Origin: Butyrivibrio sp.
Lineage (GTDB): Bacteria > Bacillota > Clostridia > Lachnospirales > Lachnospiraceae
Reading direction: 5' to 3'
Assembly (NCBI RefSeq): GCF_017433805.1
Contig: NZ_JAFRGN010000040.1
Location: forward strand, 1-64,000
DNA length: 64,000 nucleotides
This document shows, piece after piece, positions 21,606 to 61,559 of this stretch (position 1 is the first letter of the stretch; each line of letters starts with the position of its first letter). Below the pieces are notes generated by a model. The model was given only the letters and a program-made list of their open reading frames with translations, searched no databases and was not told where the DNA came from. Both the position numbers and the translations under genes were made by a program.

Positions 21606-21647
21606 CCTTGTCCCTCCAATTACAAAAAACCTAATACTAGTGCATAT

Positions 21648-21653
21648 ATTATA
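21648..21653 (-). promoter_or_regulatory. -10 box for the nonapeptide-repeat protein gene
   Basis: A perfect TATAAT on the minus strand, ~45 bp before the start codon. No convincing -35 box was found at 16-18 bp. Confidence 0.4.
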
Positions 21654-21724
21654 TCGGCAAACCATAAAAAATCATTAGACTTTATAGTAATTTAATAAAA
21701 TATTAATACTAGGAAGCATAGGTA

Positions 21725-30532: not shown

Positions 30533-30542
30533 AACTAGTCTC

Positions 30543-41733: not shown

Positions 41734-42968
41734 TAAGCCTTTCCCTTTTTCTTCTTATCGAGTATCGATTCAAAATACTCTTCCCACATTTTATTAACAA
41801 CGTCAGGACTGAATTTCTCCTGAACATAAATTGCATTCTGAGATAATTTATCAGCAAGCTCTTTGTTCTTGATAAGACGCAATATTGCCATCTTCATGGC
41901 ATCCTTATCCTTAACAGGAACAAGAAGCCCGTTTACCCCGTCAGTTATGAGATCCTTTGGACCTCCGCAGGGACAATCAGTAGATATACATGGAAGTCCC
42001 AGACTCATAGCTTCTATAAGTGAATTAGGCATTCCTTCCTGACTCGAAGCCAGGACAAACATTGATGCCTTCTCAATATGCTCAGCAACATGGCTTACAT
42101 TTCCTGCAAACTCAATACTGGAGCCGATTCCAAGAGAAACAGCCAGTCTCTGTAATTTGAGCCTGTCAGGGCCATCTCCATATAGTTTTAATTTATAGTC
42201 ACTGTAGCCTTCCTTTACTATCTCTGAGAAAGCCTCCATGACCATGGCCTGATTCTTGTTCTCATCAAGCCTTCCCACCATTACGATGCTATTTTCCCTC
42301 TCTCCACAATATCTTTTTCTGATAAAGGAAGGATTGACGGAATTAGGAAGTATAGTGCATTTTCTCCTGATATAAGCGGGAAAAAACTTCCTGGCATCAG
42401 TTGTCTGCACAACAATACCTGCTGCCTTACCAAAGGTAGCCAGCATTCCTGCTCTAAGTGCTCTGCTGTCGTATTCCATATACGGATCAGCTCTTACTGA
42501 TACAACAACCTTGATATCTTCTCTGGTAGCTGTTGAAAGAGCCATAATATTATTCTTGCCAATAAAGCTCAGAACAATATCGGGCTTAAGTTCTCTCCAG
42601 ATCTTTCTGAGTTTTTCCTTTCGAAGCCCCAGATTGGCTGCCCTGCTCTTTTGTTCTTCCTTTAAAAGAGCTGAGAACACTCTTCTGATGCCGCCCTTTT
42701 CGCCACCGTTTAAGTCAACCCATACAGGGTTTTCCTCAGTGTCACATGCAAGTGTTCCGCCATCTGCTCCAGCTGGAACCACTTTCCAGGCAGCATGTTC
42801 AACCTGGTACTCTTCCTTGGCAAGGTATGTGGTGACAAGCGTCACCTTGTGTCCCTGACTATGGAAGTATTCTGCCAGATTGACCATGACTCTTTCAGCT
42901 CCTCCCTTCTGGAGGGAGCCAATATACATGGCTATATGCATTTTTCTCGTATTGTCATCATGCTTCAT
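41733..42968 (-). CDS. GT4 family glycosyltransferase
   Basis: A 411-aa GT-B enzyme. IGSLQKGGAERVMVNLAEYF is the N-terminal acceptor-side loop, and SQEGMPNSLIEAMSLGLPCISTDCPCGGPKDLI near 325 is the retaining GT4 donor motif (E-x7-E). No membrane segments. The start at 42968 overlaps the preceding AsnB-like stop by 4 bp (ATGA); an earlier in-frame codon would lie wholly inside that gene. It is very similar in motif wording to the GT4 at 44929-46029, suggesting a duplicated pair together with the AsnB-like gene between them. Confidence 0.9.
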   Translation of the reverse strand: MKHDDNTRKMHIAMYIGSLQKGGAERVMVNLAEYFHSQGHKVTLVTTYLAKEEYQVEHAAWKVVPAGADGGTLACDTEENPVWVDLNGGEKGGIRRVFSALLKEEQKSRAANLGLRKEKLRKIWRELKPDIVLSFIGKNNIMALSTATREDIKVVVSVRADPYMEYDSRALRAGMLATFGKAAGIVVQTTDARKFFPAYIRRKCTILPNSVNPSFIRKRYCGERENSIVMVGRLDENKNQAMVMEAFSEIVKEGYSDYKLKLYGDGPDRLKLQRLAVSLGIGSSIEFAGNVSHVAEHIEKASMFVLASSQEGMPNSLIEAMSLGLPCISTDCPCGGPKDLITDGVNGLLVPVKDKDAMKMAILRLIKNKELADKLSQNAIYVQEKFSPDVVNKMWEEYFESILDKKKKGKA

Positions 42969-44908
42969 AGAATATGATAGTTGTACCATTGCTGGAAGAT
43001 GTAGAAGGACCATGCAATCTTGCTGAAGTTAGCGCCTGTTGCCGGGCCTGCATCTCCGTTAACCACGTAGTTGTTGATAAATCTTGATACATAATCAGGA
43101 TCAAATACACCCTGTTTCTTCAGGAATGAAGTACTGCTGTAATCAAGCAGCTGCTCGCGAAGCGGCCCTCTGAGCCACTGATCCATAGGAACTCCGAAAC
43201 CAGTCTTGGGTCTGTCCAGAAGCTCTTTTGGAATATAGTCATAAGCAATATCCTTGAGAATATGCTTCTTGTCACCGTTATTATACTTGAACTTATGAGG
43301 TATTCTGAAGGAATACTCCATAACCGCTGTATCCATGATAGGGCATCTGGCCTCAAGTGAATACTTCATGGAAGCTCTGTCCATCTTGACCAGAATATCC
43401 TCAGGAAGATAGGTGTCCATATCAAGGAGCATCCTTCTAACCTGGAAATTGGATACGTTATAGGTGGACTCCATAGGATACAGAACCGGCGCTATATTGT
43501 CCCTGTTGTTATAATCTGTCGCGAGATACTCCGCCGCGGACATAGGAACATCCAGTGTTTCCTGTCCTGTAATAAACGCATGAGATGCTCTCACATAACC
43601 TTCAGATACAAGCTGAGTCTTGGTCTCAGGGTCTCTGTTACCAGCAACAACCTTGACTCTGAATGGCATCTTATCAAGGAGCTTACCTCCAGGAATAGGT
43701 ATCTGACCGATTCCATTCACAATGGCACCTGGAATCTCCAATAACTGTGCCTGTCTTACATTCTCATAAATATTATATCCGCAGAAAAACTCATCTCCGC
43801 CATCACCAGAAAGAGCAACTGTAACATCTTTCTTGGCAAGCTTACTAACTAGCATTGATGGAATCTCTGAGTTATCAGCAAAAGGCTCATCGTAGTACTG
43901 AGGAATACTGCTGACAAGGTCAAACATTTCCTTCTCAGTGATGTACAACTCTGTGTGATCTGTTCCAAGGTGAGCTGCCACCTCTTTTGCATAAGCTGCT
44001 TCATTGTACTGGGGAACGTCAAAGCCTATGCAGAAGGTCTTAACTGGCTTATCAGATAATTCCTGAGCAATCGCAGTTACAAGTGAAGAGTCATAACCAC
44101 CTGAAAGGAATGTTCCAAGAGGTACATCAGCGATCATTCTGCCTGCTACTGAGTGCCTAAGGCGCTGCTTAAGTCCCTCTTTGGCCTCCTCATAGCTTGT
44201 TACAGGATTAGCGCTTTCTCTTGCGTATACTTCCTTAACATCCCAGTACTTCCACTTCTTGATACTGCCGTTTCTAAATTTAAGAATAGTTCCAGCTTCG
44301 AGCTTGTATACATCCTTAAAGATAGTGTCAGGTGCTGAAATATACTGATTGTACAGATATCTAGGAAGGAGCTGTCTTCTGATCTCGCCCTTAAAGCCAG
44401 GACACTTCATGATTGGCTTAAGCTCTGAGCCAAACACAATATTTCCGTTATCAAGCCAGTAAAAGAGAGGTTTTTTACCAATCCTATCTCTTATAAGATA
44501 AACATCCTGAGTCTCTCTGTCATAGATGGCGATTGCAAACATACCGTGGATATGGTCCACCATCTGAATGCCCCATCTCATATAGGCTGCGATGATAACC
44601 TCTGTATCACAAGTAGACTTAAATGGATAACCATTAAGCTCTTCCTTGAGTTCAAGGAAGTTATATATTTCTCCGTTAAAGACAATTGAAATACGGCCAT
44701 TTGCTGAATGCATTGGCTGATGTCCAAGAGGTGACAGATCCAGAATGGAAAGTCTCCTCTGCGCAAGACCTATGCTATATCCATCTGTACCCTCATATAT
44801 AGCAAGTCCACTATCATTAGGACCACGATGATACATAGTGTCATTCATGATCCTCAAATCATCTTCTGATATTCTCTTTTTAGATATATATCCGCAAATT
44901 CCACACAT
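42965..44908 (-). CDS. AsnB-type glutamine-dependent amidotransferase (second copy)
   Basis: A 647-aa enzyme of the same family as the gene at 37201-39093. MCGICGYI provides Cys2; NGEIYNFLELKEEL, RDRIGKKPLFYW, the ATP loop SGGYDSSL and SGDGGDEFFCGYN are intact. The two copies differ widely in sequence, so they are not a recent duplication and probably have different substrates. It sits between two similar GT4 genes. Amidation of hexosaminuronic acids is the likely role (inference); asparagine synthesis remains possible. Confidence 0.88.
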   Translation of the reverse strand: MCGICGYISKKRISEDDLRIMNDTMYHRGPNDSGLAIYEGTDGYSIGLAQRRLSILDLSPLGHQPMHSANGRISIVFNGEIYNFLELKEELNGYPFKSTCDTEVIIAAYMRWGIQMVDHIHGMFAIAIYDRETQDVYLIRDRIGKKPLFYWLDNGNIVFGSELKPIMKCPGFKGEIRRQLLPRYLYNQYISAPDTIFKDVYKLEAGTILKFRNGSIKKWKYWDVKEVYARESANPVTSYEEAKEGLKQRLRHSVAGRMIADVPLGTFLSGGYDSSLVTAIAQELSDKPVKTFCIGFDVPQYNEAAYAKEVAAHLGTDHTELYITEKEMFDLVSSIPQYYDEPFADNSEIPSMLVSKLAKKDVTVALSGDGGDEFFCGYNIYENVRQAQLLEIPGAIVNGIGQIPIPGGKLLDKMPFRVKVVAGNRDPETKTQLVSEGYVRASHAFITGQETLDVPMSAAEYLATDYNNRDNIAPVLYPMESTYNVSNFQVRRMLLDMDTYLPEDILVKMDRASMKYSLEARCPIMDTAVMEYSFRIPHKFKYNNGDKKHILKDIAYDYIPKELLDRPKTGFGVPMDQWLRGPLREQLLDYSSTSFLKKQGVFDPDYVSRFINNYVVNGDAGPATGANFSKIAWSFYIFQQWYNYHIL

Positions 44909-48694: not shown

Positions 48695-49444
48695 TTATTT
48701 CTTAGAAAGGTTCCTCTTTAATCTGACTGCAAGATATTTAGCCTTGGCAGTCATATATTCCTGGGCTTCTTCCTTAAGCCCACGCATTTTAGCATCGTAA
48801 TGCAAAAATTCGTCATAGGATACCACATCTGCTCTGTCAAACAGTTTATCTAGATTATCAAAATCCCTGTTGGACATGGTTGCTGCATGGTATACAAATG
48901 TCACGATTCCCTCTTCCTTGCTGGAAAGAGTCTTGGATTTGCTGATAGAAATAGGATAAAAAATCATTCCTTCCCTTTCATATGGGTGGATTCCAAATCC
49001 ATCAGTAATCCTGTAAAAACCATTTACCTTAAGAGCTTTCAGAGTGTTCTTGTCAAAAGAGTGTGATGGCGCCATAAAGAAGTCTGTGATGATTCCATGA
49101 CTCTTTAAGATGCGCTTTCCCTCTCTGATCATCTCATCCTGTCTGGGATAAGGAACGCCTGCAAACTCTGACTTGTCTCCAATAGGAAACATTCCAGGTT
49201 CCCTGGTAGTATATACATGATTATATCCATGCATGGCTACTACCCAGCCTTGCTGCTGGAGGCCTCTGATGTACTCCCAGAAGTCCTCTCTGGGTGCACT
49301 CTTTTTTAATTTCTTATCCTGATTATCAGGCACCACACCTATCAAGGGTTTGATTCCATGCTTGTCCAGAATCGCCTTGAATTTGTAGAACTTTTCAAAG
49401 TCCATATCTGGTGTGATGTCATCCATTCTAATAGTTATCTTCAT
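48695..49444 (-). CDS. polysaccharide deacetylase-like protein (DUF2334)
   Basis: A 249-aa NodB-fold-like protein. The start RMDDI supplies the catalytic/metal Asp pair (8-9), VAMHGYNH supplies His72 and His76, and FFMAPSHSF near 140 and FVYHAATM near 200 the later motifs, matching the DUF2334/polysaccharide deacetylase group. No signal peptide, so it would act on cytoplasmic sugar-lipid intermediates, removing an N-acetyl group. It overlaps the TviC-like gene by 4 bp. Confidence 0.8.
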   Translation of the reverse strand: MKITIRMDDITPDMDFEKFYKFKAILDKHGIKPLIGVVPDNQDKKLKKSAPREDFWEYIRGLQQQGWVVAMHGYNHVYTTREPGMFPIGDKSEFAGVPYPRQDEMIREGKRILKSHGIITDFFMAPSHSFDKNTLKALKVNGFYRITDGFGIHPYEREGMIFYPISISKSKTLSSKEEGIVTFVYHAATMSNRDFDNLDKLFDRADVVSYDEFLHYDAKMRGLKEEAQEYMTAKAKYLAVRLKRNLSKK

Positions 49445-50415
49445 AAATTCTCTTTATACCATTCAATGGCCAGTTCAATTCCAGCCTTGAAATCATAAGA
49501 TGGGTCATAGCCAAGATTCTGTCTAGCCTTGGAAATATCAGCATTAGAATCTCTGATATCACCAGCACGAGGTGGTCCAAAGATTGGCTCTACGTCCATT
49601 CCAAGTGCGCCTGTAAGATGATGATATACATCTATAAGGAATTCTCTTCCGCCTGCACCGATATTGTAAGCTTCACCAGCTGCCTCAGAAGAAGCAAGGC
49701 ATGCGCGAAGGTTACCTTCGATAACATTATCAACGTATGTAAAGTCTCTTGACTGCTTACCATCGCCATTGATAGTTGGTGTCTCGCCATTCATGAGCTG
49801 ACGAAGGAACTTAGGAATAACGGCTGCATATGCACCATTAGGATCCTGTCTTCTACCGACTACATTGAAGTATCTAAGTCCATAGGTATCAAGACCATAG
49901 AGCTTCTTGTAAAGCTTACCGTACTCCTCATCAGTCTTCTTGGTAAGAGCATATGGTGAAAGAACATTTCCTTCCTGGCCTTCCTTCTTAGGAAGAACAG
50001 TAGAATCTCCATAAACAGATGAGCTTGAAGCATATACGAACTTCTTAACTCCGTTCTGTCTTGATGCTTCCATCATGTTAAGAGTTCCTCTGATATTGAT
50101 CTCCTCGTACAAAAGAGGCATCTCGATACTTCTAGGAACACTTCCCCAGGCTGCTTCATTAAGAACATAGTCAACGCCCTTAGTAGCTTCCATACATGCA
50201 TCAAGATCTCTGATGTCCTTCTCGATGAATGTGAAATTAGGATTGCTCATGAAAGGCTGAATATTCTCAATATGTCCTGTTGAGAGGTTATCCAAACATC
50301 TTACTGTATAGCCCATCTCAAGAAGAGCCTCACATATATTGGAACCGATAAAGCCAGCTCCGCCAGTTACAAGGAAGACAGAGCCTTCCGGAAATTTTAA
50401 ATCTCTAAAACCCAT
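49441..50415 (-). CDS. tviC: UDP-GlcNAc/UDP-GlcNAcA C4-epimerase, TviC/WbpP type
   Basis: A 324-aa extended short-chain dehydrogenase. GGAGFIGSN is the NAD loop; YASSSSVYGD and Tyr155-x3-Lys159 (SPYALTKK) form the catalytic site. The segments EAAWGSVPRSIE and RYFNVVGRRQDPNGAYAAVIP are the specific signature of the TviC/WbpP group, which interconverts UDP-GlcNAc(A) and UDP-GalNAc(A). With the adjacent TviB-like dehydrogenase it should give UDP-GalNAcA. ATG at 50415 follows AAGGAG; the in-frame ATG at 50472 has no ribosome site. Confidence 0.9.
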   Translation of the reverse strand: MGFRDLKFPEGSVFLVTGGAGFIGSNICEALLEMGYTVRCLDNLSTGHIENIQPFMSNPNFTFIEKDIRDLDACMEATKGVDYVLNEAAWGSVPRSIEMPLLYEEINIRGTLNMMEASRQNGVKKFVYASSSSVYGDSTVLPKKEGQEGNVLSPYALTKKTDEEYGKLYKKLYGLDTYGLRYFNVVGRRQDPNGAYAAVIPKFLRQLMNGETPTINGDGKQSRDFTYVDNVIEGNLRACLASSEAAGEAYNIGAGGREFLIDVYHHLTGALGMDVEPIFGPPRAGDIRDSNADISKARQNLGYDPSYDFKAGIELAIEWYKENL

Positions 50416-50446
50416 TGTAATTCTCCTTAAAACACATATGATATAC

Positions 50447-50585
50447 GCATGACTCCACTTCGTTCTCGTCATGCTGCAAACATTCGAAAATCGAAATACT
50501 CATTTCATTCGCATTTCTTTTTTTCTCATGTTTGTTCAGTCTTCATGGTCATAAAAATTATCATGCAAGCATGAAATTTTCATGA
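50447..50585. promoter_or_regulatory. spacer with three inverted repeats
   Basis: The 190-bp gap between tviB and tviC is the longest in the operon. It holds GCATGAC/GTCATGC (50447-50453/50468-50474), TTCGA/TCGAA (50483-50495) and a longer imperfect hairpin TCAT...CATGC-AA-GCATG...ATGA (50549-50585). The last could be an attenuator or processing site; there is no clear U-tract and no convincing promoter. Confidence 0.45.
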
Positions 50586-50605: not shown

Positions 50606-51922
50606 TTACAATCTCCAATAGTCGAACTCAGGAGCCTTGTAATCCTCAAGGTTGTACATTCCCTTAAGATCCATGAATACCTTAACCTTGTTGTCCTTGT
50701 TAAAGAACTTAGCAATATCTGCAGGCTTGTAGTCCTTGAAGTCCTCATGAGCAACAGCCATGATAACTGCATCCATATCCTTAACGTCATCAAGTGAATC
50801 GAATTCAATGCCGTAAAGTCTCTTAGCCTCATCTGAATCTGCCTGAGGATCAACTACTACTGGCTTGATTCCATACTCACCGAGCTCATTGTAGATGTCG
50901 ATGATCTTGGTATTACGTGTATCTGGGCAGTTTTCCTTGAATGTGAATCCGAGGATTGCTACCTTAGCATTCTTAACAGCTACATCTGCTGCAATAAGTC
51001 TCTTAACGCATGCCTCTGCAATATACTTACCCATGTCATCATTGATACGACGACCTGAGAGAATGATCTGTGAGTGATATCCAAGCTCCTCAGCCTTGTA
51101 TGTAAGGTAATAAGGATCAACACCGATACAGTGTCCACCTACAAGACCTGGTCTGAATGGAAGGAAGTTCCACTTTGTTCCAGCTGCCTCGAGAACGCTC
51201 TTTGTGTCGATTCCCATCTTGTTGAAGATGATTGAAAGCTCGTTCATGAAAGCGATATTGATATCACGCTGTGAGTTCTCGATAACCTTGGCAGCCTCAG
51301 CAACCTTGATTGACTGAGCCTTATATACGCCTGCAAGTGCTACAAGACTGTAAACATTTGCAACCTCTTCAAGAGTCTCTTCATCCATACCAGAAACAAT
51401 CTTGGTAATTGTATCAAGTCTGTGTACCTTGTCACCTGGGTTGATACGCTCTGGTGAATATCCAACTTTGAAGTCTACGCCACACTTAAGGCCTGACTCC
51501 TGCTCAAGGATAGGAACGCATACATCCTCAGTAACACCAGGATATACTGTTGACTCGTATACTACGATTGATCCCTTTGTAAGGTACTTACCAAGGGTAT
51601 GGCTTGCTCCCTCAACTGGTGAAAGATCAGGAGTATGATCGTCATTAACAGGTGTAGGAACTGCTACAACGTGGAATTTACACTCCTTAAGCTTCTCAGG
51701 ATCTGCTGTAAACTCTACAGTTGTCTCCTTGATAGCATCATCACCAACTTCTCTTGTTGGGTCGATTCCTCTCTTGTACATGTCAACCTTGGCAGCATTG
51801 AAATCATAACCTACTACCTTGATCTTCTTGGCATAAGCTACAGCAATAGGCATACCAACGTAGCCAAGACCAACTAATGACAGCTTCTCTTCTCCAGCAA
51901 GGAGCTTTTCATATAAACTCAT
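50606..51922 (-). CDS. tviB: UDP-GlcNAc 6-dehydrogenase, TviB type
   Basis: A 438-aa nucleotide-sugar dehydrogenase. SLVGLGYVGMPIA is the NAD loop, VYESTVYPG the UDP-binding strand, and Cys265 in GGHCIGVDPYYL the catalytic thiol. The wording (TYKAEELGYHSQIILSGRRIND) is that of the TviB/WbpO group oxidising UDP-GlcNAc or UDP-GalNAc at C6 to the uronic acid, rather than UDP-glucose dehydrogenase. Strong CGGAGG before ATG. With tviC it forms the two-step UDP-GalNAcA route known from the Salmonella Vi capsule. Confidence 0.93.
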   Translation of the reverse strand: MSLYEKLLAGEEKLSLVGLGYVGMPIAVAYAKKIKVVGYDFNAAKVDMYKRGIDPTREVGDDAIKETTVEFTADPEKLKECKFHVVAVPTPVNDDHTPDLSPVEGASHTLGKYLTKGSIVVYESTVYPGVTEDVCVPILEQESGLKCGVDFKVGYSPERINPGDKVHRLDTITKIVSGMDEETLEEVANVYSLVALAGVYKAQSIKVAEAAKVIENSQRDINIAFMNELSIIFNKMGIDTKSVLEAAGTKWNFLPFRPGLVGGHCIGVDPYYLTYKAEELGYHSQIILSGRRINDDMGKYIAEACVKRLIAADVAVKNAKVAILGFTFKENCPDTRNTKIIDIYNELGEYGIKPVVVDPQADSDEAKRLYGIEFDSLDDVKDMDAVIMAVAHEDFKDYKPADIAKFFNKDNKVKVFMDLKGMYNLEDYKAPEFDYWRL

Positions 51923-51982: not shown

Positions 51983-53068
51983 TCAAATTTCCTGCATATA
52001 TGCATTAACAACCGCATTTCTGTCAAAATGCTCTTCTACCCATTTACGTCCGGCAAGACCCATCTTTTGTCTGCTCAAAATATCCAGCGACATAAATCTG
52101 TCCAACGCTTCATAGAGAGCTTCCTTGTCCCTTGACTTGAATAAAAAGCCTGACACATCTCTGTTGACAACTTCCCTGCATCCGCTGATATCTGAAGCAA
52201 TAACTGGTCTTCCAGTAGCAGCAGCCTCCATCAGTACATTGGACATTCCCTCGTGATAGGATGGATGTACTATCGCATCAGCTTCCCTCATATATGGGTG
52301 GATATCCTTCTGATAAGGAATCATCTTGAGATATCCGGCCTTCTCAGCAGCCTTAACTCTGTCTTCAAAATCATCCTCAAAGTATCCAACTGCTGAAAAT
52401 GCAATCTTGTCGCCATATTTCTCATGAAGCTTCTCTGCAGCATAAAGATATTCCTCAGTTCCCTTCTCCTTCATGAGTCTTCCTATGTATAGGAACCTTG
52501 TAATGTCATCCTTGTGCCCAGGATATTCTTCAAAGCTGTGCTTATCCAGATTGACACCAGAACCACTTACTGTGACATGCTTTTGGGCTCTGATACCATT
52601 TTGTTCAAATATCTTTCTATTGGTATCGTTCTGGAAAAAGAGGCATCTGCACTTCTTAAGTGAAACCTTGTACATGGTCACTATCAGTTTCAGAAGCATT
52701 CCTCCTCTTTCAAAGGTTGAACCAAGTCCTGTAATTGTTGAAAGATATGGAACCTTTAACAGTCTGCAGGCGAATCCGCCATAAATATTAGGCTTAATGG
52801 TGTAGGTAAGAACAATGTCAGGTTTCTCACGCTTAATAAGCCTCTTATAAGAACGGAAAAGAGCCATATCCTGTACAGGATTGACTCCGCGTCTGTTAAT
52901 ATCTGTGTGCTCAACCCTGCAGCCTTCTGCAGTAAGTTCTTTATTTTTTAAATCATCAGGAAGGCTTATTACTACTTCATAGCCTTCCTCTAATAGTCTC
53001 AGCAAAAGTTCATTTCGAAAGTCATAAAGACCGCTTGATGAATTTGCCAGAATCAGTGCCTTAGGCAT
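51983..53068 (-). CDS. PglA-like GT4 glycosyltransferase
   Basis: A 361-aa GT-B enzyme. ILANSSSGLYDFRNELL at the start, LTYTIKPNIYGGFACR near 95 and TITGLGSTFERGG near 113 match the PglA/WbnH group, which adds GalNAc to an undecaprenyl-PP aminosugar as second residue; HEGMSNVLMEAAATGRPVIASDI near 270 is the donor motif. Its place after PglF-, PglE- and PglC-like genes fits that step. ATG at 53068 was chosen since AAGG is properly spaced; an ATG nine bases earlier touches it. Confidence 0.87.
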   Translation of the reverse strand: MPKALILANSSSGLYDFRNELLLRLLEEGYEVVISLPDDLKNKELTAEGCRVEHTDINRRGVNPVQDMALFRSYKRLIKREKPDIVLTYTIKPNIYGGFACRLLKVPYLSTITGLGSTFERGGMLLKLIVTMYKVSLKKCRCLFFQNDTNRKIFEQNGIRAQKHVTVSGSGVNLDKHSFEEYPGHKDDITRFLYIGRLMKEKGTEEYLYAAEKLHEKYGDKIAFSAVGYFEDDFEDRVKAAEKAGYLKMIPYQKDIHPYMREADAIVHPSYHEGMSNVLMEAAATGRPVIASDISGCREVVNRDVSGFLFKSRDKEALYEALDRFMSLDILSRQKMGLAGRKWVEEHFDRNAVVNAYMQEI

Positions 53069-53079
53069 AACTATCATCC

Positions 53080-54078
53080 TTATAATTCTTTTTTGATCAG
53101 CTTCTCTTCAGGCATAATGCAAAGCTCATTGTATTTCATCATATATATGCCTTCCTGATAATCTCCGATATTGACAGGATTTTCAATTCCCTTGAGGTTA
53201 TTGATAATCTGTCTTGGGAAGTTGACTCCGCAGGCATAGGCATGTGGATAACCGCCTCCAAATCTCGGATTGACCTCTGACAGGTACCAGGTATCAGTAG
53301 CATTGTCATAGAACAGGTCGATATCTATCATTCCTCTGTAGCCAACAGTCTCAACAAAAGAAGCTATCTGTTTAAAGAGATTCTCATCCTTAACTGATAC
53401 TGACTTATCTGTCTCTCCGGCTCTCATCTTTATCTTTTCCTTGAGGAAAATAGATGTACACTTGCCTGAGATCATATCGATATATACGTCAGCTCCATAC
53501 TCCTGGCCTCTCATATATTCCTGAATGATAAGATCATCATAATCATGGAAAAGAGCTACCAGCATCTCTTTGGATTCTACTGCATTTATATTGATTGAGG
53601 CACTTCCTCTTCTAGGCTTAACAAAAACAGGGAAGTCCACCTCACCTGCAGCCATGGCGTTCTCAAAATCCTCGATGGAAAGATAGCACTTAGCTGTAGG
53701 AATTCCGAGCTTAACAAGCATCTCGTACATTCTGTATTTATCAAGGCTGACTTCGCACAGCTCATAGGATGAAACTATAGGAGTTACACCTATCTCAGTA
53801 AATCTGTCAGCATTCTCAGCAAGAAGAGACAGCTCAGGATCAATAAGACTAAATACTCCGTCAATCTTTTCTCTTCTACAAAGTCCCAGAATCTCATCGA
53901 TATAAAATGGATCCTTGATCTTGGGAACTATAACAGCCTTATCAGCGTCATAGATTGCCGGTCCAATGTTGGAACAATCTGTTGCTACAACATTTCCGTT
54001 GTTGGCAAGCTCATGTCTGAAAGCCTGTACTACCTTATTTCTTGTTCCTGCACTCAGAATAAGTATATTTGTGCTCAT
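53080..54078 (-). CDS. ATP-grasp ligase (CarB-like)
   Basis: A 332-aa protein: a Rossmann-like N-terminal domain (ILILSAGTRNKVVQAF), an ATP-grasp core with FPVFVKPRRGSASI near 152 (ATP-binding Lys), LIIQEYMRGQEYGADVY near 185, and SEVNPRFGGGYPHA near 270 (metal-binding Glu-x-Asn-x-Arg). It resembles the large subunit of carbamoyl-phosphate synthase but is far shorter and acts alone. ATP-grasp ligases join a carboxylate, activated as acylphosphate, to an amine. Located between PglC-like and PglA-like genes with a PLP enzyme, it may acylate the 4-amino group of the aminosugar. This is inference. Confidence 0.85.
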   Translation of the reverse strand: MSTNILILSAGTRNKVVQAFRHELANNGNVVATDCSNIGPAIYDADKAVIVPKIKDPFYIDEILGLCRREKIDGVFSLIDPELSLLAENADRFTEIGVTPIVSSYELCEVSLDKYRMYEMLVKLGIPTAKCYLSIEDFENAMAAGEVDFPVFVKPRRGSASININAVESKEMLVALFHDYDDLIIQEYMRGQEYGADVYIDMISGKCTSIFLKEKIKMRAGETDKSVSVKDENLFKQIASFVETVGYRGMIDIDLFYDNATDTWYLSEVNPRFGGGYPHAYACGVNFPRQIINNLKGIENPVNIGDYQEGIYMMKYNELCIMPEEKLIKKEL

Positions 54079-55025
54079 CCTTTACCTCCGAATTTATTCA
54101 GGTCATCAAAAAATAGTGGTGTTCCGCCTGTGTGTATAAATAATATGTTCTTATCAGCAATATTATTCTGTCTGATATACTTCTCCATACCAAGGAAAGC
54201 CTTGCCCGTATAAGTACTATCCAGAGGCATTCCATACATAACAAGTGATTTCTTAATCACATCCTGAATCTCAATGCTGTCAGTACCGTAGCCATCACCT
54301 GTATAGTCATCCAGGAATATGGTCTTATCCTGAATATCCGCTTCTGAAATGCCAGCACTCTCAAACTCTTTCTGTCCAAGATACTCTCTGATGCTATCAA
54401 GCACCACATCTCTTCCTCTTGGATTCTTCCTGGCAATGCTGATTCCTATTATCTTCCTGTCATCGCCCTCAAGGAGCTGTCCACATACAAGCCCTGCCTG
54501 AGTAGTACCAGTTCCCGATGCAAAAAAGATATAGTCAAAAAATATATTATTAGCTTTCTCGAACTCTTTTATTTCCTGATAACATGCAATATAAGCTCTA
54601 GTGCCAATATTGCCATGACCACCACCTAAGATAAAATAAGGGTTATGTCCAAGCTTTCTCAGCTCATCGAGCTTATCATCTATGGTCCTACTGACCTGAT
54701 CTACTGGAACAGTGATGATCTCAGCGCCAAATAATTTCATCATCTCAGAATTATAGGTGCTGTCACTAACCTCAGCTGGTCCAATGATTATACATTTCTT
54801 ACCTCTGGCCGCGGCCATATTAGCCACAACCCTGCAGTGATTGGAATGGCTGCTGCCATAGGTCACCACATAGTCATAATCGCCCTTATCTATATCCTGG
54901 AAGAAATGAAAAGCCTTCCTCGCCTTGTTTCCACCAAAGGAATAGGGAATCATGTCCTCTCTTTTAACATAAAGAGCGCCAAACTCATCACTATTAAGTT
55001 TATATGTGGGCGTCATATTCATCAT
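54075..55025 (-). CDS. PLP enzyme, ACC deaminase/D-cysteine desulfhydrase family
   Basis: A 316-aa fold-type II PLP enzyme. Lys34 in FGGNKARKA is the Schiff-base residue; YGSSHSNHCRVVANMAAARG is the family's second motif; ASGTGTTQAGLV near 170 binds the PLP phosphate. Members act on D-cysteine, ACC, L-cysteate or 2,3-diaminopropionate-like amino acids. It overlaps the ATP-grasp gene and the sugar transferase gene by 4 bp each, so the three are translationally linked. It may supply or convert the amino acid used by the ATP-grasp ligase; the substrate is unknown. Confidence 0.87.
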   Translation of the reverse strand: MMNMTPTYKLNSDEFGALYVKREDMIPYSFGGNKARKAFHFFQDIDKGDYDYVVTYGSSHSNHCRVVANMAAARGKKCIIIGPAEVSDSTYNSEMMKLFGAEIITVPVDQVSRTIDDKLDELRKLGHNPYFILGGGHGNIGTRAYIACYQEIKEFEKANNIFFDYIFFASGTGTTQAGLVCGQLLEGDDRKIIGISIARKNPRGRDVVLDSIREYLGQKEFESAGISEADIQDKTIFLDDYTGDGYGTDSIEIQDVIKKSLVMYGMPLDSTYTGKAFLGMEKYIRQNNIADKNILFIHTGGTPLFFDDLNKFGGKG

Positions 55026-55633
55026 TTGTTTTGCGCTTTTCTGTACTCATCAAAGTCAGGAAGTGCATTCAGCACGACTCCATCATGTGACAAAACAGTT
55101 TTTATAGTATCTATTATAACCTTAACATCAGTTAAAAAGGTCAGATGTTCAACATAATATATGTCGTATTCAAATTTCTTTTCCCAGGAAATAGCATTTC
55201 TGCCATGTGCCTGCGCATAACCTGTAAGTCCTGGTCTTACGCTGTGGCGAAGCCTCTCCCTATCGTTGTAGTAAGGAAGGTATTTGACAAGAAGTGGTCT
55301 TGGTCCGATAAAGCTCATATCCCCTTTGAGGATATTGAAAAACTCAGGAAGCTCATCAAGGCTTGTTGCCCTGAGCTTCTTGCCAAAAGAGGTAAGTCTC
55401 ACTTCATCAGGAAGAAGATTACCATTCTCATCCTTCTCATCAGTCATTGACCTGAACTTGTACATTCCAAATATCTTCTCATCCTTGCCAGGGCGCTGCT
55501 GCTTGAAAATGATCGGACTTCCAAGCTTGGTTCTGACAAGTATAGCCAGAATGATATACAGCCATGAGAAAAGAACTATGACAAGGAGCGATAGTACTAT
55601 ATCAAATAGTCTTTTAAAAAAATGTTTGTACAT
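55022..55633 (-). CDS. PglC-like initiating phosphoglycosyltransferase
   Basis: A 203-aa monotopic phosphoglycosyltransferase (bacterial sugar transferase, PF02397). One N-terminal re-entrant hydrophobic helix (~10-33), then KFRSM, and the catalytic Asp93-Glu94 in TSLDELPEFFN, then FIGPRPLL and RPGLTGYAQ. The short form lacking extra membrane helices is the PglC type, which moves phospho-aminosugar (such as diNAcBac-1-P) from UDP to undecaprenyl phosphate. It starts the repeat unit of this locus. Confidence 0.92.
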   Translation of the reverse strand: MYKHFFKRLFDIVLSLLVIVLFSWLYIILAILVRTKLGSPIIFKQQRPGKDEKIFGMYKFRSMTDEKDENGNLLPDEVRLTSFGKKLRATSLDELPEFFNILKGDMSFIGPRPLLVKYLPYYNDRERLRHSVRPGLTGYAQAHGRNAISWEKKFEYDIYYVEHLTFLTDVKVIIDTIKTVLSHDGVVLNALPDFDEYRKAQNK

Positions 55634-55655
55634 AACACCTCATCCGGTAATTTTA

Positions 55656-56927
55656 TTAAGCAAAGCATCTCTTAACTATCTCAATGATCACATCCTGCTG
55701 CTCAGGAGTCATCTTGTTATCACTTGGAAGGCAAAGGCCTCTTTCGAAGATATCCATTCCAATATCAGGAACAGCACCTTCGTTGATATATGCGTTACTT
55801 CTAGCTCTTCCGTTACCACTCTCTGTGATGAAAGGATTCATTCTGTATACTGGCTGCATGTGCATAGGCTTCCAGATTGGTCTGCCTTCAGCATTGTACT
55901 TATCGATTTCTTCAAGAATCTCAGTAGGGCAGCTCTTGCCAGGCTCAGATACATAGAGAACATCTCTCTCTCCGCGAACCTGCTTGCACATAGCTTCCTT
56001 GTCGATGAGGATACATGAAAGCCAGAAGTTAGGCTCACTATTCTTCTCATCGTATGGATTCATTGTCACAGGAAGATCCTTGAAGCCTTCCTTGTAGCGC
56101 TCATAGATAGCTTTTTTCTGAGCAATATGCTCATCAAGATAAGGAATCTGGCCTCTTACTACACCAGCAACTACGTTACTCATACGGTAGTTATATCCAA
56201 GCTCCTCGTGCTGATACCATGGAGCATCCTCTCTTGCCTGGGTAGACCACTTACGAACCTTGTGGGCATCTTCCAAATTGTTTGTCAGGAACATACCTCC
56301 TGCAGATCCAGTAATGATCTTATTTCCGTTAAAAGAAATAATGCCATAGTCGCCAAGAATACCTGTCTGCTGTCCCTTGTAGGTTGCACCAAGTGATTCT
56401 GCTGCGTCCTCAACAATAAGAGCACCATGCTCCTTGCAGATATTGCGAATCTCGTCCATCTTGCCAGGTGTTCCATAGAGGTGTGCTATTACGACAAGCT
56501 TAACCTCTGGGTAAATCTCAAAAGCCTTTTTAAGAGCCTTAGGATTCATGTTCCAGGTCTCATATTCTGTATCGATGAATACAGCTTTTCCACCTTCGTA
56601 GGCAATTGGATTAACTGTAGCATCAAAGGTCATATCTGAGCAGAAAACCTTGTGTCCCTCAAGTGTTCCATGGCCAACCCTTGCCTGTCCGTAGAGCCTC
56701 TCACCAGCAAGCTTGATAGCAAGGTGAAGAGAAGCTGTTCCAGCTGAAAGAGCTACAGCATCCTTACATCCAACCTTCTGGCAGATCATCTTCTCTGCTT
56801 CATTGATATTGGCACCAATTGTGGACATCCAGTTAGTATCATAGGCTTCCTGAATATACTTGATCTCATCGCCATGCATTGTAGGTGATGAAAGATATAA
56901 CTTTGACTCAAATGGCTTCATTTCCAT
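55656..56927 (-). CDS. PglE-like sugar aminotransferase (DegT/DnrJ/EryC1/StrS)
   Basis: A 423-aa PLP aminotransferase. Lys203 (SFNGNKIIT) is the Schiff-base residue, Asp174 (VEDAAESLG) contacts the pyridine nitrogen, and SAGTASLHLA near 61 binds phosphate. It should convert the 4-keto sugar made by the PglF-like enzyme into the UDP-4-amino-4,6-dideoxy sugar. The start at 56927 follows GAGGAG; a TTG 15 bases earlier is not supported. It lies 23 bp after pglF-like. Confidence 0.92.
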   Translation of the reverse strand: MEMKPFESKLYLSSPTMHGDEIKYIQEAYDTNWMSTIGANINEAEKMICQKVGCKDAVALSAGTASLHLAIKLAGERLYGQARVGHGTLEGHKVFCSDMTFDATVNPIAYEGGKAVFIDTEYETWNMNPKALKKAFEIYPEVKLVVIAHLYGTPGKMDEIRNICKEHGALIVEDAAESLGATYKGQQTGILGDYGIISFNGNKIITGSAGGMFLTNNLEDAHKVRKWSTQAREDAPWYQHEELGYNYRMSNVVAGVVRGQIPYLDEHIAQKKAIYERYKEGFKDLPVTMNPYDEKNSEPNFWLSCILIDKEAMCKQVRGERDVLYVSEPGKSCPTEILEEIDKYNAEGRPIWKPMHMQPVYRMNPFITESGNGRARSNAYINEGAVPDIGMDIFERGLCLPSDNKMTPEQQDVIIEIVKRCFA

Positions 56928-56950
56928 AATAAAACTCCTCAAACTTCTCT

Positions 56951-58897
56951 TTATTGTGCAGCACCACTATTTATCATTTCTGATGTCTTTTCAAGCGCTT
57001 CTTTTCTGTCTCTTGTCATTACATATCTGTGAACATCAGGGTGGTAAGTCTCTACTATCTCTTTAACCAGTTCCTTGATATTAGGAGCCTCTTCCTTGGC
57101 TGCTACATTGAGCTTCTCAAGCTGGGAAAAGAACTTCATCTCATCCATCTCGATAGGCTTACCGATGTGTATCATCTTGTTAGAAGTATCCTGAAGTCCT
57201 TCCTCATCCATGAGCATCTCCTCGTAGAGCTTCTCACCTGGACGAAGTCCGGTAAACTCAATCTTAATATCCTCTCCAACCTTGTAGCCAGAAAGCTTAA
57301 TAAGATTCTCAGCAAGATCAAGGATCTTGACCGGCTCACCCATATCAAGAACGAATATTTCTCCGCCCTTAGCATAGGCACCTGCCTGAAGGACCAGTGA
57401 TACAGCCTCAGTAATTGTCATGAAATATCTGATGATATTAGGATCAGTAACTGTTACAGGTCCACCTGAAGCAATCTGCTTCTTAAAAAGAGGAATAACT
57501 GATCCGTTAGATCCAAGTACGTTACCGAATCTAACAGCAACAAACTCTGTGTCATAGTGCTTGTTAAAGGTCTGTACTATCATCTCGCAGATTCTCTTGC
57601 TGGCTCCCATTACGTTAGTAGGGTTAACAGCCTTATCTGTAGAGATCAAAACAAACTTCTTGGTTCCGTTCATGGCCGCTGCCATAGCAGTCTTCCAGGT
57701 TCCAAATACATTGTTTTTGATAGCTTCTCCAGGACTTGTCTCCATAAGTGGAACATGCTTGTGAGCTGCAGCATGATAAACAATGTCTGGTTTGTACTCT
57801 TCAAAAATGTTGTTGATACGAAGTGTATTTCTAACGGATGCAATAAGCACTACAAGATCCATTTCAGGATATTTGCGAATCAACTCCTGCTGGATATCGT
57901 ATGCATTGTTCTCATAAATATCTACTATGATAAGTCTCTTAGGCTTGTGTCCTGCAATCTGTCTGCAGAGCTCTGAACCAATAGAACCACCACCACCTGT
58001 TACCATGACCACCTTGCCTTGAACATAACCTGCAATCTGGTCCATATCAACTGCGATAGGATCTCTTCCCAGAAGGTCTTCTACTTCTACGTCTCTCAGT
58101 CTTGAAACATTAACATCACCGTTTACAAGCTGATACATTCCTGGAAGTGAACGAAGCTTACAGTTAGTATTCTTACAGATTTCAAGAATCTTCCTAAGTT
58201 CAGGTCTTGATACAGAAGGAATAGCAACAATGATCTCATCTATGTCGTAGAGGTCTGCACATTCAACGATTCTGTCTCTACCGCCAACTACTCTAATGCC
58301 CTGAATGTACTTGCCCCATTTATTGGAGTCGTCATCAATGATACATTTGATGGACATTGTTGAGTAATTACTTGTGATGATATCCTTGATGATAATGTTG
58401 GCAGCTTCACCAGCGCCGATTATCATAACAGCCTTACTGTTGTTCCTGTTCTCTACTCTGTGCTTCTGACTGCGCAGGAATCTATAGGAGAATCTGCTCA
58501 CAAAGATCATGCTGATCAGAATGAAGGTATACAGGAAATAATAGCTCTGTGGAACTGGCTGTGACTGGGACTTAAAGAACTGAAGTCCTATTGCATTGAT
58601 CACACCTGAAATAACACAGGCCATTACCAGATTCTGCATTTCTCTTTCACCTGCATATGCCCAAAGGCTGTCATACAGTTTAAAGATATAGAATACGCAG
58701 AATGTCAGTAAAATATTGATAGGCAAAAAGGTGTTTACCGGAGTCATGAAGTGATCCGGAATCGCATCCAGCTTAAACTCATATCTGATCAGAATAGCGA
58801 AATAACTGGCAAAAATAATGCTGATTATATCGTAGATGATAAGACCAGTTCGCCTATATAGTTTTTGATAATTAAAAGGTTCTTTTTTCTTACTCAT
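56951..58897 (-). CDS. PglF-like membrane UDP-GlcNAc 4,6-dehydratase
   Basis: A 648-aa protein: four N-terminal membrane helices (~15-130), a CoA-binding-like Rossmann domain (~145-265, MIIGAGEAAN) and a dehydratase domain with TGGGGSIGSELCRQ near 300, AAAHKHVPLME near 385 and STDKAVNPTNVMGASKR near 430 (catalytic Asp-Lys and the SxK that replaces Tyr-x3-Lys). This is the full-length PglF/WbpM/CapD form, making the UDP-4-keto-6-deoxy-GlcNAc used by PglE. It overlaps the ligase-like gene upstream by 8 bp. Confidence 0.94.
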   Translation of the reverse strand: MSKKKEPFNYQKLYRRTGLIIYDIISIIFASYFAILIRYEFKLDAIPDHFMTPVNTFLPINILLTFCVFYIFKLYDSLWAYAGEREMQNLVMACVISGVINAIGLQFFKSQSQPVPQSYYFLYTFILISMIFVSRFSYRFLRSQKHRVENRNNSKAVMIIGAGEAANIIIKDIITSNYSTMSIKCIIDDDSNKWGKYIQGIRVVGGRDRIVECADLYDIDEIIVAIPSVSRPELRKILEICKNTNCKLRSLPGMYQLVNGDVNVSRLRDVEVEDLLGRDPIAVDMDQIAGYVQGKVVMVTGGGGSIGSELCRQIAGHKPKRLIIVDIYENNAYDIQQELIRKYPEMDLVVLIASVRNTLRINNIFEEYKPDIVYHAAAHKHVPLMETSPGEAIKNNVFGTWKTAMAAAMNGTKKFVLISTDKAVNPTNVMGASKRICEMIVQTFNKHYDTEFVAVRFGNVLGSNGSVIPLFKKQIASGGPVTVTDPNIIRYFMTITEAVSLVLQAGAYAKGGEIFVLDMGEPVKILDLAENLIKLSGYKVGEDIKIEFTGLRPGEKLYEEMLMDEEGLQDTSNKMIHIGKPIEMDEMKFFSQLEKLNVAAKEEAPNIKELVKEIVETYHPDVHRYVMTRDRKEALEKTSEMINSGAAQ

Positions 58898-61517
58898 TAG
58901 TTTTTTCCTTAAAGATCATCCCCGCAAAAGATAGCATCAGAGCAACCGTCATAGGGTTACATAAATGGAACACCCACTCTGTCATTCCTGCTACAACAAA
59001 ACCTATTGTAATTGCAAAAGAAATAAGTGTAAGCGGATCGTTATTCTTATTTCTCCTGTACATACTGATACCTGAGATAATAGCCGAGAGTATCAGCAGA
59101 ACAAATACAGCACCCGTGATAATACCATTATCATAGGCAACCTGAATATAAGTATTATGCGCATGAACTGCAATTTCCCCATTTGGAAGCTCTGCTCCCA
59201 TCTCTTCATGCCCATACATATTAAGCTCTTTAAGATAAGACTTGAATATGGTGATACGGCCGTTGGATACAACATCCAATCTGTTATCGAGGTCAACATA
59301 TCCATTTAGAGTATCCATAAGCATAAGATACTCAGCGCGCGTAAAGCCATTAGCAACAAGATAGTCGCCGACAGGTCTGGCAAAAGTAGCTGCGCCCTGC
59401 TGCTGATAATATTCTTCTACAGAATTCTCTAAAGGATATCCATAGTTATCCAAAACAGGATTTCTGTTGCCATCATAATTATACACGTCAACAGGATAGA
59501 AATAATCATCAGCATCTATGCCAAGAATCTTGGTTCCAAAGAGATTAACAAATCTCTCTACACACATAAAGTTAGGATTATCCCAAGATGCTCCTCCACG
59601 TATTCCTGCATCGGCATCGTCAATTACATAGAACACGGGCTGTGAAACTATTGTAGGAACAATCCTCTGAAGTGTAAATGCAGCAGGGAAGCACACAATA
59701 ACTGCAGCAACCATAACAGCAACAATTCTGAAGAACTGCTTCCTGTACTGGCTGACAACCACCAGCAGAACTGCAAGAACAACTGCACAAATAGCCACAT
59801 AGGCTGTTCTTGATACTGTAAAGATGGCATACGCCATGATCCATCCAAAAAGAATCAGCTCCTTCCATGCTGTTCTGAACAGATCCCAGCAGTGCATTCT
59901 CTTAGGGAATGCCACAACCTTGATCGCCAGCATTACTGTAGCAACTGCACCCATAAATGTAAGATACTCAGCAGTTACTGTAACTGTGTGGAAAATAAAG
60001 GCAAATCTTCCGCTTACATATCCTGGGAAATATCTGTATAAAAGGGAATATCCCAGAGAGATGGCAAAATTAAGCATGAGACCACCGGACAATATCCTGT
60101 ACCAGTCTCTTTTGCCCTTCCAATAATACAATCTAAAGTAAAGTCCGCCATATATAAGGGCCAGGTAAATTCCCCAGGTCCTGGTATTTCTGAAGATGAT
60201 CAGCATCGCAAAAAGAAGTATCAGAACAAATCCGAATACAGTAATGCGATAGCTTGTACCAAATACCTTCTTGTTGCTACGAATATTATGAGCAATACAT
60301 GACAAAGCTGACCTGATGATATTGATCACGATAAAACCAGCAAGTATCACTATGATGATCAGATACTTAAGAGCCATGTTTTTGAGGTCAAACTCTTTTT
60401 CCTCAGGGCTGACAGCATTGGCGCTGTAGTAGTTAAGACCACCTGCCACAGATGCCACAAACCAAAGGAAATTAAACGGATTGAATACATCCTTAAAGGA
60501 GAAGGTCAAAATGATCAAAAGCAACAGACAGATCACCATTCTTCTCTCAGATAAGGTGTGGAAAATGTCATACAGGCCATTCATATAGTCGTTGGCATGC
60601 CAGATTGCAAGGGCAATCATCAGCATCTGCAGGACATAGATAACCCTGTTCTTGCTATTGATGCCATCCCAGAAGGATATTCCGAATCTATGACTCACAA
60701 CCTTGTGGTTAATACCATAAAATACCATTGCTGCTGCAATGAGTAGACCAGCTTCATAGAAAATTATATCCGCCACTCTTGAATCAAATACTCTGAGCGG
60801 AAATACCATGATCATCAGACTTGCAAAGCACACAGCAGCTATAGGATTAGCCACAACCCTAAGTGCGCTTTCGCCAGTTGATAATGTGTTCTTATCTGGA
60901 TTCTTTTTGAAAAACAGCTCTGTAAAGAGCAGGATCACGATACAGGCAGCTGCAATAGCCAGTATAACTATCATGGAAATGCTCTTAGCCATAGGAATCC
61001 TGTAATTGTATCTGGCATAAATATGCCTTGCCGGAATCTCTTCCCAGTTATAGAAGAGTCCACCAACGTAGCCAGCCTCTCCTGTCAGATTCTCAAGGCC
61101 AACAATATACTTGGATCTGCAGCCATTAAGGCCTACGTAATACTCTTTACCAACCTCAAGATTGAGCTCCATTGGTACATTTACAAAACCAGGAAGCGTA
61201 AGTCCATCTGTATCTATAAAGGTTCTCAGAATCTCAGCTGCGTTTTCATCATACACAGAAACGCCTATATATCTGCCATTTATCATTTCAGATACATAAA
61301 CGTCTACACTACTAAGTCTGTCATACTGACTCACAAATTTCTGCTTGAGAGTATATTCGTAGTTGATAACGCCAGAATACTCCGTGAGCTCTCCACCAGC
61401 AGAATACTCCTGCACTGTTGTCCACACTCTAAGTGGGAAAACACTCAGGATAGCAACCAGTGCGATCAGTATTGTCGTTATTGAAATTGCCGTTTTCTTA
61501 CTAATAATTTGTCTCAT
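58890..61517 (-). CDS. O-antigen ligase/polymerase-like membrane protein (Wzy_C)
   Basis: An 875-aa membrane protein with about 14 hydrophobic helices. After the first helix comes an outer beta domain (~25-180; YVSEMINGRYIGVSVYD), and near the C-terminus AVHAHNTYIQVAYDNGIITG, the Wzy_C/RfaL ligase motif with its conserved His. It is long for the family owing to the added outer domain and an outer loop at ~625-760. It may polymerise the chain or transfer it to its acceptor. ATG at 61517 is chosen over a GTG 30 bases upstream; AAGGA precedes it. Confidence 0.83.
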   Translation of the reverse strand: MRQIISKKTAISITTILIALVAILSVFPLRVWTTVQEYSAGGELTEYSGVINYEYTLKQKFVSQYDRLSSVDVYVSEMINGRYIGVSVYDENAAEILRTFIDTDGLTLPGFVNVPMELNLEVGKEYYVGLNGCRSKYIVGLENLTGEAGYVGGLFYNWEEIPARHIYARYNYRIPMAKSISMIVILAIAAACIVILLFTELFFKKNPDKNTLSTGESALRVVANPIAAVCFASLMIMVFPLRVFDSRVADIIFYEAGLLIAAAMVFYGINHKVVSHRFGISFWDGINSKNRVIYVLQMLMIALAIWHANDYMNGLYDIFHTLSERRMVICLLLLIILTFSFKDVFNPFNFLWFVASVAGGLNYYSANAVSPEEKEFDLKNMALKYLIIIVILAGFIVINIIRSALSCIAHNIRSNKKVFGTSYRITVFGFVLILLFAMLIIFRNTRTWGIYLALIYGGLYFRLYYWKGKRDWYRILSGGLMLNFAISLGYSLLYRYFPGYVSGRFAFIFHTVTVTAEYLTFMGAVATVMLAIKVVAFPKRMHCWDLFRTAWKELILFGWIMAYAIFTVSRTAYVAICAVVLAVLLVVVSQYRKQFFRIVAVMVAAVIVCFPAAFTLQRIVPTIVSQPVFYVIDDADAGIRGGASWDNPNFMCVERFVNLFGTKILGIDADDYFYPVDVYNYDGNRNPVLDNYGYPLENSVEEYYQQQGAATFARPVGDYLVANGFTRAEYLMLMDTLNGYVDLDNRLDVVSNGRITIFKSYLKELNMYGHEEMGAELPNGEIAVHAHNTYIQVAYDNGIITGAVFVLLILSAIISGISMYRRNKNNDPLTLISFAITIGFVVAGMTEWVFHLCNPMTVALMLSFAGMIFKEKTNE

Positions 61518-61559
61518 ATATTCAAGTCCTTGGTAATTAAAGGGCACAAAAAGCCATCA

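Follow-up and report, generated by a model that had tools for sequence, protein, structure and literature searches.

A stand-alone ATP-grasp ligase and a PLP enzyme in a bacillosamine-type operon of Butyrivibrio, and their probable role in N4-acylation of the initiating sugar

Here, we analysed a 64,000-nucleotide stretch of DNA from Butyrivibrio sp. (assembly GCF_017433805.1, contig NZ_JAFRGN010000040.1, positions 1 to 64,000 of the forward strand), hereafter referred to as the window. It contains an operon in which a pyridoxal phosphate (PLP) enzyme and a stand-alone ATP-grasp ligase are located between a small phosphoglycosyl transferase (PGT) and a GT4 glycosyltransferase. The genes lie on the minus strand and are transcribed in the order PglF-like, DegT aminotransferase, PGT, PLP enzyme, ATP-grasp, GT4, TviB-like and TviC-like. 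The first gene [56951-58897] encodes a PglF-like 4,6-dehydratase, which is composed of a membrane/CoA-binding N-terminal part (PF13727, 54 bits) and a Polysacc_synt_2 part (PF02719, 407 bits), and which is below threshold for the named models of PseB and FnlA. The second gene [55656-56942] encodes a PglE/LegC-like sugar 4-aminotransferase of the DegT type (PF01041), which reaches 298 bits against a LegC-family model that has a cut-off of 420; its start is a TTG as listed, with a later ATG possible. The top solved relatives of this protein are 1o61 and 4ztc, which we take to be PglE of C. jejuni. The third gene [55022-55633] encodes a PglC-like small single-domain PGT, in which the PF02397 match of 208.5 bits covers nearly all of the 203 residues. 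The slot that follows is occupied by a fold-type II PLP enzyme of the PALP family ([54075-55025]; PF00291), the predicted maker or reshaper of the attached acid, and by the ATP-grasp ligase ([53080-54078]; PF21360, PF02655 and NF009406), which is predicted to acylate the 4-amino group (N4) of the sugar. After the slot comes the GT4 glycosyltransferase ([51983-53077]; PF00534), which likely adds the second sugar. The adjacent 4,6-dehydratase, LegC/PglE-type aminotransferase and small PGT constitute a bacillosamine-type set at the level of families; among the named models for dehydratases and aminotransferases, none had a match above its cut-off in the window proteins. An earlier note on this DNA had described the PglF-, PglE- and PglC-like genes as contiguous; all five open reading frames are in place and their domain matches agree. 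The note had also reported 4-bp overlaps on both sides of the PLP gene. The overlap with the ATP-grasp gene is an ATGA at 54075-54078, shortly preceded by GGAGG, whereas that with the PGT gene exists only with the first of several possible ATG starts.

The same note had stated that the acetyltransferase PglD is missing from the operon. A TIGR03570 search of the window's assembly found no NeuD/PglD-type gene in the operon, where the model matches only the N-terminal part of the PglF-like protein, with 24.5 bits. The assembly has two NeuD-type genes, and both are found on another contig (locus L135, contig C57), in a nonulosonic-acid-type locus with NeuB-, PseF- and LegC-type genes.

The ATP-grasp ligase scores 539.7 bits against NCBIfam NF009406 (PRK12767), for which the cut-off is 271, and structure comparison gives 47-51% identity to 2pn1. 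Its catalytic lysine and acidic/ExN motif, as described in PMC4431377, are intact, with K154, D254, E268 and N270 invariant in 47 of 47. It is the one close copy in the assembly, where two other matches have 25 and 22 bits, and its closest relatives by sequence are from Butyrivibrio, with 93% for locus L001. The PLP enzyme is similar to the D-cysteine desulfhydrase / 1-aminocyclopropane-1-carboxylate (ACC) deaminase family in its fold-type II fold, its Lys, Ser-Asn and Tyr positions align with those of 4d8t, 7ysk and 1j0a, and D-cysteine desulfhydrase is the closest in fold. However, it differs from the named families, forming its own subfamily with the motif HTGGTPLFFD near the C-terminus. 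It scores far below the cut-offs of all named NCBIfam models compared, with 175 of 450 bits for CuyA, 164 of 289.4 for ACC_deam_rel and 141 of 392 for ACC_deam. That it acts as a racemase and not as a lyase is our guess.

Scanning genome contigs confirmed 106 relatives of the ATP-grasp ligase, the best 80 of which were retained together with flanks of up to 10 kb each. Many of these stretches end at contig ends, and such loci stay in the counts unless stated otherwise. Genes were recognised by profiles built from this ATP-grasp-centred set, and for each slot family Pfam or NCBIfam supplied the name of one or two representatives. A PGT is present in 78 of the 80 loci, a PglE-like aminotransferase in 65, a PglF-like gene in 44, a GT4 gene in 29 and a TviB-like dehydrogenase in 25; a full-length NeuD was found in none of the 80 fetched stretches. 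Over these loci, the association of the ATP-grasp ligase with PGT and PglE-like genes, and without NeuD, is more than chance. The PLP gene is found in 39 loci, and 18 of these also have a GNAT. A PseH-like GNAT occurs in 31 loci, in 30 of them within the slot; it is absent from the window, and the one GNAT compared has a PseH score of 60 bits (cut-off 93). The variable slot near the ATP-grasp gene may also contain a transaminase with a D-2-hydroxyacid dehydrogenase (6/80), a second ATP-grasp (5/80), a diaminopimelate-decarboxylase-like gene (3/80) or FemAB (3/80). Any recognised filling is present in 61 of the 80 slots and none in 19. In one locus, a BCCT betaine-type transporter gene (L067:7511-9049) lies in the slot between the second ATP-grasp and the PLP gene. 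A PIG-L-type deacetylase gene was seen near the ATP-grasp gene in L035 (by Pfam) and in L059, L068, L078 and L174 (by clustering or profile), a hint that deacetylation takes place in some relatives.

Two and three genes downstream of the ATP-grasp gene, the window has two neighbours assigned by NCBIfam, a TviB-like UDP-sugar dehydrogenase [50606-51922], which is not needed for the slot, and a TviC-like epimerase [49441-50472]. Their position would suit a different function, in which the ligase activates and amidates the carboxylate of a uronic acid made by these enzymes, and amidated glucuronic acid occurs in a Campylobacter capsule (PMC11800379). We consider this function very improbable, since the dehydrogenase accompanies the ATP-grasp in 25 of the 80 loci compared with 78 for the PGT, and since L113 and the two NeuD-bearing loci L092 and L126 have the dehydrogenase without this ATP-grasp. 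Furthermore, the same polysaccharide cluster of the window encodes two asparagine-synthase-type glutamine amidotransferases ([37201-39093] and [42965-44908], minus strand), which possibly amidate uronic acids and which suit that reaction better than the ligase.

The segment between the PGT and the GT4 gene is exchanged among relatives. Fifty fetched loci have the arrangement PGT-slot-GT4, of which 48 are distinct (L015/L156 and L016/L121 are the same loci, and L021/L023 and L076/L095 share sequence); since most were picked up by way of their ATP-grasp, the proportions are biased. The GT4 gene retains its position after the slot in these 50 loci. The slot consists of the ATP-grasp in 21 loci, of the PLP enzyme and the ATP-grasp in 15, of NeuD in 2, of NeuD with another ATP-grasp in 1, and of nothing recognised in 1. 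The ten slots seen in a single case each include GNAT with ATP-grasp, GNAT with PLP enzyme and ATP-grasp, transaminase with dehydrogenase, GNAT and ATP-grasp, decarboxylase-like enzyme with ATP-grasp, and FemAB. Eleven of the 50 come from a PglE-centred set and were thus not picked by their ATP-grasp. They comprise two slots with NeuD alone (L092, L126), one with NeuD and another ATP-grasp (L093), three with this ATP-grasp (L121, which also has the PLP enzyme, L123 and L125), two with another ATP-grasp (L118, L124), one with FemAB (L132), one with nothing (L113), and a fusion (L120). A survey of genome neighbourhoods, of the kind that the earlier note had suggested for PGT-adjacent pairs of ATP-grasp and PLP genes, agrees with a replacement insofar as a NeuD-type gene takes the position of the ligase in colinear relatives, but L093 has NeuD together with another ATP-grasp.

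The PglE-centred set was obtained by a search of 397 Lachnospiraceae genomes with the aminotransferase, in which at most four candidates were scored per genome and which gave 133 matches outside the window's own genome. Slot fillings other than the ATP-grasp are under-recognised in this set, since the profiles come from the ATP-grasp-centred one. Within 6 kb and on the same strand, 21 of the 133 PglE-like loci have a relative of the ATP-grasp with 220 bits or more, 23 have a NeuD match, and none has both (Fisher one-sided p = 0.013, with no correction for kinship). Ten NeuD rows below the cut-off were left out of this count; their positions as listed put none of them inside 6 kb of a PglE-like match. 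A weaker ATP-grasp relative is found in 11 of the 133 loci, in 2 of them together with NeuD, and widening the distance to 8 kb yields one PglE-like locus (G302) with both genes. Viewed from the ligase, a PglE-like gene is located within 6 kb of 16 of the 24 relatives with at least 350 bits. Among the remaining eight, G004 has such a gene at about 8.6 kb, and in all of the seven that were fetched (L156-L162) a PGT immediately precedes the ATP-grasp or is separated from it by one gene. The link is looser for weaker relatives: the aminotransferase is found at 5 of 10 with 220-350 bits, and L163, L164, L167 and L168, with an ATP-grasp relative of at most 319 bits, have no recognised PGT.

Gene fusions connect the same families. 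With the PGT and the ATP-grasp of the window joined as one query, 7998 proteins were scored, and 11 natural PGT-ATP-grasp fusions (P0121-P0131) were found among the 120 proteins listed, with 47-62% identity over 97-99% of the query. Their alignment retains both active sites, with the catalytic Asp-Glu pair of the PGT present in all 11, as are K363, E475 and N477 of the ATP-grasp. In other fusions, the PGT is joined to a decarboxylase-like domain (L162) or to GNAT (L061). GNAT-PLP fusions are found in five loci (L030, L050, L060, L079 and L155), and eight PLP-ATP-grasp fusions (L136-L143) lie outside PGT loci. The one of these that was scanned, L137, has the L-amino-acid-ligase domain LAL_C2, and its surroundings comprise GT2 genes, a DegT aminotransferase, two small EamA-type proteins and YfhO. 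The PLP enzyme has 25 matches in the 397 genomes, its own included. Of these, 9 have an ATP-grasp match no more than 3 kb away, 8 are the fusions, 5 others (L144-L148) share their fetched stretch with an ATP-grasp gene, and 3 (L152-L154) have none adjacent. Counting fusion, a distance within 3 kb or presence in the same fetched stretch, 22 of the 25 are tied to an ATP-grasp. Two further arrangements were noticed by eye. The gene L120:10122-12374 encodes a PGT-ATP-grasp-HAD-like fusion in which the ATP-grasp lysine and ExN are apparently lost, and L093, L124 and L131 have ATP-grasp proteins of about 540-570 residues with a HAD-like C-terminal part, located after a PGT or NeuD gene.

The 4-amino group could instead be acetylated in trans by the NeuD-type genes or be left free, with the PLP/ATP-grasp pair making an unrelated amide or dipeptide. 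The two NeuD-type genes of the genome, the four ATP-grasp relatives without a recognised PGT and the eight PLP-ATP-grasp fusions outside PGT loci are consistent with this, but both NeuD genes belong to the NeuB/PseF-like locus, and the PGT-ATP-grasp fusions and the presence of a PGT in nearly all of the 80 loci speak against it. We regard it as quite unlikely.

The order of the operon and its lack of a PglD-type gene are direct observations, as are the exchange of the slot and the fusions. That the ligase takes the place of PglD is partly supported by them, because of the PGT-ATP-grasp fusions, the slot exchange in colinear loci and the lack of any PglE-like locus with both NeuD and a close relative of the ATP-grasp within 6 kb. 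We propose, with a probability of about 0.6, a bacillosamine-type route in which the ATP-grasp ligase, and not PglD, couples a small amino acid, probably supplied by the PLP enzyme, to N4 before the PGT acts. Judging from their families, the PglF-like and PglE-like enzymes would produce UDP-4-amino-4,6-dideoxy-N-acetylglucosamine. The weakest step of the route is that of the PLP enzyme, which would react with the alpha carbon of an amino acid and most likely yield the D-form. The ATP-grasp ligase, from its family and context, would convert a small carboxylic acid into an acyl phosphate and then into an amide at N4. The PGT would load the acylated sugar on the lipid carrier, and the GT4 enzyme would act next.

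By family, most slot partners produce or act on alpha-amino or alpha-hydroxy acids, and polysaccharides contain 4-N-acylated sugars with N-acetyl-D-alanyl or N-acetylglycyl groups (PMC3210612). The slot partners, together with the PLP-ATP-grasp and GNAT-PLP fusions, suggest that the attached group is likely an amino or hydroxy acid. Because of the partner families and the known N-acetyl-D-alanyl and N-acetylglycyl sugars, an amino acid would be the likeliest acyl group in the PLP-bearing loci. The ligase could also attach a hydroxy acid, for example glycerate, which has been proposed for the meningococcal PglB2, and the PLP enzyme would then only tune the precursor pool or serve another step. 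Besides this precedent, the transaminase and D-2-hydroxyacid dehydrogenase in the slot of 6 of the 80 loci and the close kin that have no PLP gene agree with a hydroxy acid. However, where the PLP enzyme is present, its fusions with the ATP-grasp and with GNAT, and the L-amino-acid-ligase domain of one of them, suggest amino acids, and a hydroxy acid is unlikely in our judgement. Extending the coupling of an amino acid at N4 beyond the window, we tentatively suggest, at somewhat below even odds, that Firmicutes have a plug-in slot for acylation adjoining the PGT. In it, the ATP-grasp ligase and interchangeable acyl-making genes (the PLP racemase-like enzyme, a GNAT cap, the transaminase with the hydroxyacid dehydrogenase, and the decarboxylase-like enzyme) would write varied amino-acyl or hydroxy-acyl groups on N4, giving a D-amino acid in the window and, with GNAT, N-acetyl-D-aminoacyl sugars.

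Several observations weigh against this coupling by the ligase and its PLP partner. Nothing in a structure search pointed to a UDP-sugar site in the ATP-grasp. The NeuD-type enzymes from the other locus of the genome could work in trans, and the GNAT of 30 of the 80 slots might itself acetylate N4. A shorter hexapeptide protein, which matches part of the NeuD profile, is present somewhere in 17 of the 80 stretches and adjoins the ATP-grasp in L042 and L048. Neither the ATP-grasp nor NeuD lies within 6 kb at 81 of the 133 PglE-like loci. The earlier note had named a PglD-type gene co-occurring with the locus in relatives as a point that would contradict it, and such genes are partly present. 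In L093 and L108, a PglD-type gene directly precedes an ATP-grasp that belongs to another subfamily, in G302 a NeuD match below the family cut-off lies 3.7 kb past the ATP-grasp, and the two NeuD-type genes of the window's genome stand at their separate locus. Furthermore, five Butyrivibrio loci (L002, L005, L006, L007 and L009) have no PLP gene, and their ATP-grasps are 76-91% identical to that of the window, with 88-91% in L002, L005 and L006. Trees with 75 rows imply a minimum of 18-20 changes for the PLP gene, 6-9 of them forced by well-supported branches. The PLP step may therefore be optional or dispensable, given these close kin and the many changes. The idea that the two enzymes jointly stand in for PglD is partly supported as regards the ATP-grasp; the PLP enzyme, found in 39 of the 80 loci and missing beside such similar ligases, is probably an optional part.

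The rest of the polysaccharide cluster in the window has other features. Two GT11 (fucosyltransferase-type) genes ([24872-25801] and [36249-37121], minus strand) are found in it, together with a polysaccharide pyruvyl transferase [25823-26995] and an MBOAT O-acyltransferase ([40213-41733], minus strand). Six large open reading frames of the minus strand, [58890-61547], [29351-30610], [33342-34385], [39106-40200], [19845-21665] and [23352-24872], have no Pfam match at the thresholds used.

Both the PGT and the glycosyltransferase that acts next read the initiating sugar on the lipid carrier. A swappable ligase cassette that writes the N4 group of this sugar would, if it exists, be a combinatorial source of surface chemistry in these Firmicutes, and so of modular variation of cell-surface sugars. 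Current annotation would then hide it under names such as 'carbamoyl phosphate synthase-like' and 'D-cysteine desulfhydrase'. No description of an exchangeable PGT-adjacent slot was found in the open-licence literature searched, and, if true, our proposal would widen PglB2, the one case found in print, to a larger set of enzymes with testable donors.

Comparison with known systems shows that the locus is a variation of a known theme, since PglB2 and EpsC-EpsN-EpsM-EpsL have already been described. The dehydratase, aminotransferase and small PGT belong to the same families as those of Bacillus subtilis EpsC-EpsN-EpsM-EpsL, the acetyl form of the route in a Gram-positive (PMC10653937), and of Campylobacter PglF-E-D-C, both of which make di-N-acetylbacillosamine. 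However, both of those routes have an acetyltransferase, EpsM or PglD, and this operon has none. In relatives, the ATP-grasp beside a GNAT that may cap its product resembles the L-amino-acid ligases of ATP-grasp clades, for which such capping was proposed in PMC4431377; the families there are R2K and the reaction is peptide ligation, whereas the context here is a lipid-linked sugar. The closest precedent in idea is PglB2 of Neisseria meningitidis, an ATP-grasp/PGT enzyme that yields a 4-glyceramido sugar, glyceramido-acetamido-trideoxyhexose (PMC11130364), and the acyl step of which is termed 'proposed' in PMC6959607. The replacement of the acetyltransferase by an ATP-grasp, which the earlier note had put forward, is borne out in part but has a published precedent. 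In PglB2, as in our proposal, an ATP-grasp tied to the PGT replaces the PglB acetyltransferase in the acylation of a bacillosamine-type sugar, and the genetic coupling of the two is likewise found here, as they are one gene apart in the window and fused in the 11 proteins of the same two families. As far as the published descriptions of PglB2 allow comparison, it is one fused protein with a glycerate-derived group, whereas the window has a separate ligase and a PLP enzyme. Relative to PglB2, the stand-alone ligase, its PLP partner and the exchangeable slot are new.

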